DNA of 35,575 nucleotides from Prochlorococcus marinus CUG1416 (GTDB lineage Bacteria; Cyanobacteriota; Cyanobacteriia; PCC-6307; Cyanobiaceae): assembly GCF_017695965.1 (NCBI RefSeq), contig NZ_JAAORM010000003.1, forward strand, positions 1 through 35,575. The letters run 5' to 3'. The first letter of the stretch is position 1. The number at the start of each line of letters is the position of its first letter. Shown here piece after piece: positions 14,240-16,489 of this stretch. Below the pieces are notes generated by a model. The model was not told the origin of the DNA. It searched no databases and saw nothing but the letters and a program-made list of their open reading frames with translations. The translations under genes were made by a program, and so were the position numbers.

Positions 14240-14506
14240 TTATTTAAGAACCTCCCTACAAAACTCCCAAATTCTTTGTTTACTTTTTAGTTTAGAAATC
14301 CTAGATAGTTTATGAAAGTTAGTTTTAGATTTTTCAACAGATAAAAGCCTACAGTTATAGTAAACTTGATAATTTCTAGAAATAATTCCTAATTTGAGTG
14401 CTATATCACAAATGGGGATTATTAGAGCCAGAATAAAAAGGATACCTAAAACTTGCGAAAATGACTTTGAATAATTTTCATTTTCAGTTTTTAATTCAAA
14501 CTTCAT
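14240..14506 (-). CDS. Small membrane protein, hypothetical, 88 residues
   Basis: The product has a hydrophilic N-terminus, one long hydrophobic segment (about 18-41) and a basic cytoplasmic-type C-terminal half (KLSRISKLKSKQRIWEF). Its ATG overlaps the stop of the preceding minus-strand gene by one base (TAATG), so they are coupled. It ends three bases from the exporter operon on the other strand. No family recognised. Confidence 0.6.
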   Translation of the reverse strand: MKFELKTENENYSKSFSQVLGILFILALIIPICDIALKLGIISRNYQVYYNCRLLSVEKSKTNFHKLSRISKLKSKQRIWEFCREVLK

Positions 14507-14733
14507 TATTTAACTATATGCTGAGGGCACTTAATTGCAGCAATAGCAACAGCTGCAACTTTAAAATTTTCTGACTTCTCAATAACCTTTTTAACCTCTA
14601 ATGGTCCAAATTTGTTACTGGCATCACTGTAAGAAAGAAGTAAAGATTTATAATTATCGTGACCTATATTTCTATATTCACAGAAATTATCTCCAACATA
14701 GTTCAAAAGAGTAAGTAATGTTAATTCAATCAT
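14506..14733 (-). CDS. Hypothetical 75-residue protein
   Basis: The product is mostly helical: MIELTLLTLLNYVGDNF, a central SDASNKFGPLEVKKVIEKS, and an Ala-rich end AAVAIAAIKCPQHIV. No clear membrane span. It is coupled to the next small membrane gene by an overlapping stop and start. Unknown function. Confidence 0.6.
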   Translation of the reverse strand: MIELTLLTLLNYVGDNFCEYRNIGHDNYKSLLLSYSDASNKFGPLEVKKVIEKSENFKVAAVAIAAIKCPQHIVK

Positions 14734-14905
14734 TAAATCTTTTTAACTAAGCTAGTTCATAAGAATAATACAATGAATGACATTTTTAACAAGTTTCATT
14801 AGTAATAAAAATTGAAATCATGAAATAACAAGTTCGATCATGAGGTAAAAATTAAAAAATTATTTCAGAATTAAAATACTCACACATATAAGAACTTGCA
14901 TGGCA

Positions 14906-15027
14906 CTATCTGTAGTGTTCAACAACAACTAAAGATGCACTACAGATAGGGGGTTGCAATTTTCAGGAAATTGGTTTAAAAATAAGGTTCCCCATCACCC
15001 GGCCCCACACATGTGAGGCCTTTTTTT
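14906..15027 (+). ncRNA. Putative structured non-coding RNA
   Basis: A perfect 12-bp inverted repeat CTATCTGTAGTG (14906-14917) / CACTACAGATAG (14938-14949) with a 20-base loop is followed by a GGGG...CCCC pairing region that holds a small hairpin (CAATTT / AAATTG around TCAGG). A GC-rich terminator hairpin (15001-15020) with seven T ends the unit. There is no open frame of note in it, and the GC content is higher than the surroundings. Picocyanobacteria carry many small RNAs of this size. I cannot match it to Yfr1, 6S, SRP or tmRNA from memory. It could instead be a leader for the gene at 15115, but the terminator argues for a separate RNA. Confidence 0.55.
15001..15027 (+). terminator. Strong rho-independent terminator of the putative ncRNA
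   Basis: GGCC...GGCC stem with an inner CACA / TGTG pairing and one mismatch, followed directly by seven T. Confidence 0.8.
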
Positions 15028-15114: not shown

Positions 15115-15195
15115 ATGACTCTATCTTTATTAACTTTTACAGCTGTTTTTGGTCTTTTTTTGACCACAACAATATTAGTATTCACATTTAATTAA
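15115..15195 (+). CDS. 26-residue membrane peptide
   Basis: ATG 15115, preceded by AAAGG. The product is almost one hydrophobic helix (LSLLTFTAVFGLFLTTTILVF). Its size matches the smallest photosystem and cytochrome b6f subunits, but the sequence does not let me name one. It overlaps the end of the convergent TauE/SafE gene by 21 bases. Confidence 0.5.
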   Translation: MTLSLLTFTAVFGLFLTTTILVFTFN

Positions 15196-16008
15196 CATAC
15201 AAAAACTCAGTATAGATTTAATAAACAAACTGATACCAACTGAAAGACAAACTATTGTAAAAGTTTTTTTTATTAATTTATTTCCTTTTAATTTTGATAA
15301 ATGAGCTCCGAAATATCCTCCTGTAAAAGAACCAACTACTAATAATAGTAATATATTTGAAGGAACTGACCCTATTTTACTCAAAATTATTGCTCCAGTA
15401 AAATTCCAAAAAATTCCAACAGTAAAGAATGTCAAACTTATAGCACGTAGAAAATCCATTCCAAAAGTTTTTATTAAAAGTATTGTTACTAGCAATCCAG
15501 TTCCTGAAGAAATAGAACCATTCAAAATACCTATTAGGAAAATTAAAATTAAAAATCTAATTTCATGAATTAAATTAAGTTCATTATTCCCAGATGACAA
15601 ACCTAAATCTGATTTAAAAAATGAGTAAAAAGCTAATAAAATTGAAATTATTCCTAAAATTAAGTATAAATATTGTTCTGAGATAAATTCAACTATAGAG
15701 GCGCCAAAAATAACTCCAGGCAATCCAAAAATTAAGATTTTCCAAGCAACATAAATATCATTTTTTAGAGATTTGTAATTTCTTAATGAACCGCCTAGTC
15801 CTAATGCTACTGTGGCAAATTTATGACTAGCAAGAGCCTGATAATAAGGAACTCCAGATAAAATTAATGCTGGCAATTGTAGTAAGCCTGCTCCACCTCC
15901 AGAAATTGCTGAAAACGCATTAGAAATGAAGGATATAAAAAATATAGTGACACTTTTATAGAAAGGATAGTCAAGGCTATTTACTAAAGTTGTTAATAAA
16001 TAAAGCAT
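15175..16008 (-). CDS. TauE/SafE-family permease (putative sulfite/sulfonate or other anion exporter)
   Basis: The 277-residue protein has about eight hydrophobic segments in two halves, each with the family motif: SAISGGGAGLLQLPALI near residues 36-52 and NGSISSGTGLLVTILL near 163-178. Members of TauE/SafE move sulfite, sulfoacetate or other organic anions across the inner membrane, but most cyanobacterial members are unassigned. The start ATG gives a normal-length protein. It is a single-gene unit facing a tiny plus-strand peptide gene. Confidence 0.85.
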   Translation of the reverse strand: MLYLLTTLVNSLDYPFYKSVTIFFISFISNAFSAISGGGAGLLQLPALILSGVPYYQALASHKFATVALGLGGSLRNYKSLKNDIYVAWKILIFGLPGVIFGASIVEFISEQYLYLILGIISILLAFYSFFKSDLGLSSGNNELNLIHEIRFLILIFLIGILNGSISSGTGLLVTILLIKTFGMDFLRAISLTFFTVGIFWNFTGAIILSKIGSVPSNILLLLVVGSFTGGYFGAHLSKLKGNKLIKKTFTIVCLSVGISLFIKSILSFCMLIKCEY

Positions 16009-16147: not shown

Positions 16148-16489
16148 ATGCATAAACAAGATGCAATTTACCTTGATCAGCTATGTCCCAAGATAAGTAA
16201 TAAAAGTTGGAGAGAATCACTTTATAAGTTTACTAACTATAAATGCATTTATTGCGGTAAACCATCAGAATCACTTGATCACCTTCATCCAATATCAAAA
16301 GGGGGTACAAGCATTAAAAGTAATTGCGTCCCATGTTGTTTGTCATGTAATGGTAAGAAATCAGATTCGGAAGTTCTTAGTTGGTACAGAAAACAAATTT
16401 TTTATGATCCTAGAAGGGCTATGGCAATACGAGCATGGTTTAATGATGATTTAAGAATAGCGTCAGTTCTTTTGAACTACTTAAATTAA
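16148..16489 (+). CDS. HNH endonuclease-domain protein
   Basis: The 113-residue protein has an HNH module: zinc cysteines CIYC (33-36) and CLSC (64-67), the catalytic-type DHLHPISKGG (44-53) with His45, and the central Asn59. After the motif comes a helical C-terminus (SWYRKQIFYDPRRAMAIRAWF). Small stand-alone HNH proteins of this type are common in cyanobacteria and act on DNA, in repair or mobile-element settings. There is no methylase or phage gene next to it, so a house-keeping DNA role is as likely as a selfish one. Confidence 0.85.
   Translation: MHKQDAIYLDQLCPKISNKSWRESLYKFTNYKCIYCGKPSESLDHLHPISKGGTSIKSNCVPCCLSCNGKKSDSEVLSWYRKQIFYDPRRAMAIRAWFNDDLRIASVLLNYLN

Follow-up and report, generated by a model that had tools for sequence, protein, structure and literature searches.

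The window, by which we mean the whole stretch of 35,575 nucleotides from Prochlorococcus marinus CUG1416 that was analysed, carries the following features around a putative small RNA gene.

14506-14733, minus strand: upstream neighbour o1, 75 aa, no Pfam match (context)
14887-14892, plus strand: possible -10 element TATAAG, a guess by eye that is absent from the promoter scan, in upstream DNA of moderate conservation
14900-15027, plus strand: putative small RNA gene, from a model match at 14903-15027 (R1, 142.1 bits) and BLAST relatives; 5′ end estimated
14906-14949, plus strand: 5′ hairpin with arms 14906-14917 and 14938-14949, 12 pairs, 4 of them doubly changed
14918-14937, plus strand: hypervariable apical loop with a fixed length of 20 nt, from loop parsing and the divergence test
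14950-14993, plus strand: middle domain closed by GGGG/CCCC, with a weak inner hairpin at 14957-14973
14975-15004, plus strand: nearly invariant core UUUAAAAAUAAGGUUCCCCAUCACCCGGCC
15001-15027, plus strand: intrinsic terminator, stem 15001-15020 and then T7
15175-16008, minus strand: downstream neighbour, a TauE/SafE-type transporter (Pfam TauE, E 1.6e-36; context)

An earlier note on this DNA had described a perfect 12-bp stem, a GGGG/CCCC-closed domain with an inner hairpin and a strong terminator, and all three are found. The arms of the perfect inverted repeat (14906-14917 and 14938-14949) enclose 20 nt at 14918-14937; GGGG at 14950-14953 pairs with CCCC at 14990-14993 around a weaker hairpin (14957-14962/14968-14973); and the terminator stem (15001-15008/15013-15020), with one C.A mismatch in CUG1416, runs into T7 at 15021-15027. 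The plus strand is predicted to fold with -38.0 kcal/mol versus -25.88 (SD 3.25) in 200 shuffles, none of which was as good (z -3.73). The minus strand also folds beyond its shuffles (z -3.09), as expected of inverted repeats, which fold on both strands; the fold alone therefore does not assign the strand, and we place the RNA on the plus strand because the T-run and terminator point that way. A simple terminator and promoter scan listed neither the terminator at 15001-15027 nor a promoter. Across 146 distinct RNAs, no coding frame stays open over 14906-15007 in every one, and the best, a plus-strand frame, does so in 70. Two small ORFs lie nearby on the plus strand: one of 26 aa, hydrophobic, between TauE and the RNA (15115-15195; no Pfam or NCBIfam match), which has a similar ORF in only 8 of 188 loci, and a small stand-alone HNH endonuclease gene (16148-16489, 113 aa), whose HNH part is similar to those of IscB and Cas9d.

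By BLAST at E≤0.001, 201 of the genus's 266 genomes contain the element, among them 80 of the 87 with a completeness of at least 90% and a contamination of no more than 5%. For the synteny and loop work, 188 RNA copies were extracted from the loci collected. The o1 gene lies upstream in 183 of the 188 loci, 139-177 bp from the extracted RNA region, and a TauE-type gene lies downstream in 177, both opposite in strand to the RNA in nearly all loci. Among the 11 loci without TauE, 7 end within 216 bases, and L117, L123, L051 and L162 have at least 1.5 kb of downstream sequence, yet no TauE. In many single-cell assemblies (for example, G130:C12, G122:C5 and G136:C11), the distance from the RNA to a contig end is about 20.3 kb, and on the same side, which would fit assemblies that break at one common place near the locus. 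MED4 falls in the same genus group as the window's genome, which is presumably of the high-light type.

Pairing was assessed in 60 diverse aligned sequences, a set that omits four loci whose core end differs from a fixed expression. Standard pairs fill 91.9% of the pair cells, versus 39.6-55.0% in slid versions and 90.9% in column shuffles, and cells changed on both sides number 27 versus 12.2 in the shuffles. Stem 1 is paired in 92.2% of cells and the terminator stem in 94.4%, each with 4 pairs showing changes on both sides. The GGGG/CCCC helix is paired in 96.3% of cells and lacks covariation support because three of its four pairs never vary, so that it is compatible with the alignment but unproven; of all the helices, the inner hairpin is kept least (85.0% of cells). 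The earlier note had proposed a stand-alone structured RNA, to which stem-breaking changes in relatives would be fatal. The opposite, compensatory change, is what stem 1 and the terminator display, and the same interval in other strains holds a conserved element, usually between the same two genes. Conservation, synteny, covariation and family models thus all support that proposal at the level of sequence comparison.

The element also belongs to a wider family. Of 400 genomes from the bacterial family, 168 are matched by a model built from this locus (R1) and 188 by a model that includes the R1 relatives (R2), the latter in 39 of 59 genera at E≤0.01; as we read the R2 matches, 35 genera reach E<1e-4. 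Each of the 68 genomes sampled from the genus has at least one R2 match; in six of them the R1 scores are too weak for this locus, and these probably hold only the paralog. Paralogs of about 117-125 nt lie at G000:C5:2552-2668 (minus strand) in the window's genome and at 772356-772480 (minus) and 348852-348967 (plus) in MED4, where the third family member is at 936710-936836. In other genera many genomes carry several copies, in some cases identical and in tandem: G322 and G390 each carry two identical copies on the same strand, 1.6-2.3 kb apart (loci L253 and L255), and in G390 the neighbouring ORFs are duplicated too, pointing to a recent segment duplication or an assembly effect. By eye, the ORF lists of 22 loci revealed no shared neighbours of the copies in other genera. 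A second CCCCATCACC motif lies about 20-60 nt upstream of many copies (L270-L277, L257-L259, L343, L345 and L346); some other genera have it inside a small hairpin, after which comes ATGAGTACTAAGCAC, a tiny ORF extending into the 5′ arm of the RNA.

A covariance search against Rfam, for which the earlier note had singled out the 6S and Yfr families, gave zero gathering-level matches in the window. In 13 loci with family members, Rfam matched only tRNA and a separate Cyano-1, leaving the RNA itself unmatched; this is a multi-copy RNA family outside Rfam. A Chlorobi-1 RNA match (RF01696; minus strand, 21.8 bits against a gathering score of 50, E 0.0012) was rejected as chance arising from the terminator palindrome. 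Carriage by viruses was likewise rejected: viral contigs held no copy of the exact core pattern, and hits of 27 nt (query 55-81, E 0.4) in three phage records fall inside a late sigma-factor gene and were taken as chance.

The nearly invariant part of the RNA is its core, UUUAAAAAUAAGGUUCCCCAUCACC. Among 74 BLAST-picked loci, which are themselves biased toward good matches, TTCCCCATCAC is present in all 74 and CCCCATCACC in 73. We quote core conservation from these loci only, since the 119 named contigs holding the core pattern (all labelled Prochlorococcus except one Synechococcaceae) were fetched by that exact pattern. The complement of the core, GGTGATGGGGA, is found at the start of a sigma-70 gene in 10 of 10 genomes, seven from the genus and three from other genera. 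Apart from this gene start, all GGTGATGGGGA sites in six of the genus genomes are RNA copies or the motif just upstream of a copy, and the single additional site in the seventh (G026) is 20 nt away from a weak R2 match (14.7 bits, E 0.048). Further sites occur in the three other genera; some are unexplained, such as G295:1883668 and G322:1329522 inside coding genes. A reversed control pattern gave 0 or 1 match per genome. The shared sigma-70 site reads AGGAGGCCAGGGTGATGGGGATCC in most genomes and extends from the Shine-Dalgarno sequence to codon 3 of a gene whose product has sigma-70 regions 1.2, 2 and 3. This gene is rpoD4 (PMM1697 in MED4), as published rpoD4/PMM1697 primers fall inside it in MED4, a genome identified by Yfr10 lying at the coordinates published for that strain.

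The predicted pairing is centred on the start codon. Positions 14989-15004 are antisense to rpoD4 from +7 to -10 (duplexfold), and the modelled duplex over that interval has 16 pairs and one bulge, with weaker pairs outside it. For the 32-nt core the duplex with rpoD4 is -37.8 kcal/mol, versus -27.1 for the best of 4000 background windows, from which those with the seed or its complement were left out; pairing each genome's own 40-nt core with its own rpoD4 gave -39.3 to -42.6 kcal/mol in seven genomes. The gain on cofolding is -16.8, versus -12.8 for the best of 32 genes of the window and only slightly past the best of 200 shuffled targets (-15.4). Within the free RNA the seed is partly paired (mean unpaired probability 0.576), and the predicted target pairing overlaps the last bases of the terminator 5′ arm. 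On the side of the target, 67 of the 68 genus genomes have the 22-base rpoD4 start region with no more than one mismatch, and it is more conserved than the starts of the three flanking genes, for which the comparable figures are 88/183, 108/179 and 27/93 loci.

The distribution of RNA and site is less telling. Fifteen genomes were chosen in which the models detected no RNA, and 14 of these gave a closest sigma gene: eight keep the exact GGTGATGGGGA, five do not, and one was not resolved. The rpoD4 site is therefore not kept only where the RNA is. Among 59 genera, by our own reading, 31 have both the RNA (E<1e-4) and the 22-base rpoD4 pattern, 4 have only the RNA (in incomplete genomes), 4 only the pattern and 20 neither; one genome, G360, has the pattern twice. 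Because some genomes with no detected RNA keep the site and the genera share ancestry, we do not use this co-occurrence as proof of the target; nor is there covariation between seed and target, because both hardly vary.

The locus very likely encodes a conserved trans-acting small RNA, judging from its comparative record. It combines a terminator of its own and a conserved structured unit between genes with a conserved stretch complementary to a conserved mRNA start elsewhere in the genome, both among the features by which base-pairing small RNAs are recognized. We propose, with a probability of about 0.68, that this member of a multi-copy family of Prochlorococcus-type genera pairs in trans with the mRNA of the group 2 sigma factor gene rpoD4 and blocks its translation start. 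An RNA of about 125 nt would present the core UUCCCCAUCACCCGGCC, antisense to the ribosome-binding site and start codon AGGAGGCCAGGGUGAUGGGGAUCC, would pair with the mRNA from about -10 to +7 and would keep ribosomes from starting, so that RpoD4 output would be lowered after transcription. Such repression would depend on the RNA stretch CCCCAUCACC that matches rpoD4. We infer both that the RNA is expressed and that it pairs with rpoD4 in the cell. The occasion may be light, redox state or time of day. In MED4, PMC2663038 describes five sigma factors, PMM1697 (rpoD4) among them, all of which cycle over the day; because rpoD4 mRNA does so, our guess is that the RNA serves to time or limit RpoD4.

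A core that acts on some other protein or RNA, with the rpoD4 complementarity incidental or secondary, is an unlikely alternative that would fit a core whose conservation extends far past its antisense part (UUUAAAAAUAAG), as might be expected of a protein site, and the retention of the rpoD4 site in 8 of 13 resolved genomes with no detected RNA. It is harder to square with a complement that, inside the genus, is conserved nowhere else and there covers a start codon, or with a duplex far stronger than those of the 4000 background windows. Pairing with rpoD4 could also activate or stabilize the mRNA, for example by opening a hairpin at the start codon, and the rpoD4 start region on its own does fold into a hairpin around that codon; the hairpin is ordinary, however (z 0.29), and the predicted pairing covers the start codon itself, which makes activation improbable. 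We regard as very improbable indeed that the element acts as DNA (a cruciform or recombination site) or is the tail of another transcript rather than a free RNA. A perfect inverted repeat with a variable spacer, folding better than shuffles on both strands, would suit a DNA element, but the compensatory and G-U changes and the terminator on one strand speak for RNA, and in nearly all loci the two flanking genes are encoded on the other strand. Loop inversion was not seen: in the 1,525 pairs whose four-fold divergence is under 0.2, distances between loops go down to 1 of 20 in the same orientation and only to 8 for reverse complements. Repression of rpoD4 at its start codon thus remains the reading that we prefer. 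Prochlorococcus has few regulators and is a very abundant ocean phototroph. If true, repression by this RNA at the rpoD4 start codon would give the sigma-factor layer an additional, post-transcriptional switch, and it has the merit of making a concrete pairing prediction.

The most novel part of the RNA is its hypervariable, length-locked loop, for which the question is whether mutation or selection is at work. The loop could be parsed in all but 3 of the 188 extracted loci and is 20 nt long in 180 of the 185 parsed; two loops parsed as 23 nt are 20 nt in the alignment. It has 144 distinct 20-nt sequences, with letters near random and a clear bias only at positions 1, 3 and 18-20. In the divergence test, which retained 128 of 161 loci after identical ones were removed, the 71 closest pairs (drawn from only 39 loci) differ at 40% of loop positions and at 48% of the middle 16, versus 8.3% at four-fold sites of the flanking genes and 9.2% in upstream intergenic DNA. 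At higher four-fold divergence the loop saturates near 65-69%. The BLAST-picked loci alone provide one pair as close as these, and 80 of their pairs at a four-fold divergence of 0.164 have a loop divergence of 0.509. Changes between close relatives are scattered substitutions, and positions 1-20 and 2-19 pair within the loop about as often as composition predicts. In the same eight genomes (28 pairs each), the loop of the paralog, also 20 nt, differs by a mean of 8.6% (0.086) versus 59.8% (0.598) here. The conserved paralog loop and the slow flanks together imply that neither relaxed constraint nor the general mutation rate explains the loop; as far as sequence comparison goes, something specific to this locus is acting on it, either a mutation hot spot or selection to differ.

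Several sequence-based roles for the loop were considered. The earlier note had suggested that the 20 bases could bind mRNAs, an idea that the comparison does not support, as the letters are not conserved even between close relatives; a conserved mRNA seed was rejected for the same lack of conservation. The loop of this strain alone has a 19-nt exact match in its own genome (window 14916-14934 to G000:C5:598790-598808), whose counterpart in relatives lies antisense to the LVVVEH codons of uvrA. The loops from two other genomes lack such a match, with none above 15 nt among the own-genome matches listed, so that uvrA antisense is no general rule, and the match is probably a coincidence owing in part to a CAA repeat. 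A loop that works as a guide would be expected to match a target in its own genome or in phages; viral contigs contained no exact 20-mer copies of the two loops searched. A diversity-generating retroelement was also discarded, there being no second long hairpin match among the 12 own-genome matches listed. Together with the RNA, real loops fold slightly better than shuffled ones (-39.7 versus -39.0, p 2.7e-5) with the same seed openness (0.576 versus 0.575), a small advantage that probably comes from shuffling away the biased loop ends.

We would give an even chance to the loop being a neutral, length-fixed spacer that sits on a local hot spot of mutation and has no sequence function. Its GC content (0.285) is close to that of the window (0.278), its letters are near random and transitions about equal transversions (57:60 in 29 close pairs), all as a spacer would have it. 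Drift alone, however, cannot surpass the four-fold rate, there is no evident reason for a mutation process confined to one loop, and the paralogous loop of the same length is conserved in the same eight genomes. A more daring and rather doubtful idea is that the loop serves as a 20-nt address, locked in length but actively diversified, on a regulatory RNA that is frozen elsewhere. Between close relatives the address would be rewritten with stem, core and target site unchanged, by a locus-specific mutation process or by selection for difference, such as phage pressure or a strain-specific partner RNA.

Voigt 2014 reportedly lists RNAs as well, and the transcript may already be on record among the MED4 RNA lists. 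Further MED4 RNAs are described in PMC7368042 and PMC3898218, the latter with five new ncRNAs. In the parts available of the literature on rpoD4 or sigma factors with small RNAs, we found no report of pairing between the core and rpoD4, and the portions searched of the Prochlorococcus small-RNA literature hold no description of the hypervariable loop. The closest comparison is with Yfr8-Yfr21, listed in Table 1 of PMC2518516, which are intergenic RNAs of 29-450 nt, many of them Prochlorococcus-restricted and some multi-copy. None of them coincides with any of the three MED4 loci of this family, and identity with them was rejected, as R2 is not significant around 13 of the 14 (Yfr12 was not included; best 14.2 bits, E 0.24). 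Cyano-1 (the Yfr2 family, RF01701) and Yfr10 (RF02362) are likewise picocyanobacterial and multi-copy with a short conserved single-stranded motif, but the motif differs (for Yfr10, ACUCCUCACAC). Yfr1 shares the sigma factor, PMM1697 being given as one of its targets (IntaRNA rank 4, energy -9.03) in PMC3142192. Its motif and RNA are unrelated to those described here, and the value of -9.03 comes from IntaRNA, a different program from the one used for our duplex. Antisense small RNAs of the RyhB/MicA type block start codons. The pairing proposed here, in trans and by a conserved stretch over the ribosome-binding site and start codon, would be of that type. Unlike them, the RNA carries a separate hypervariable loop, and it would act in a genus in which most strains are without Hfq, according to PMC2518516.
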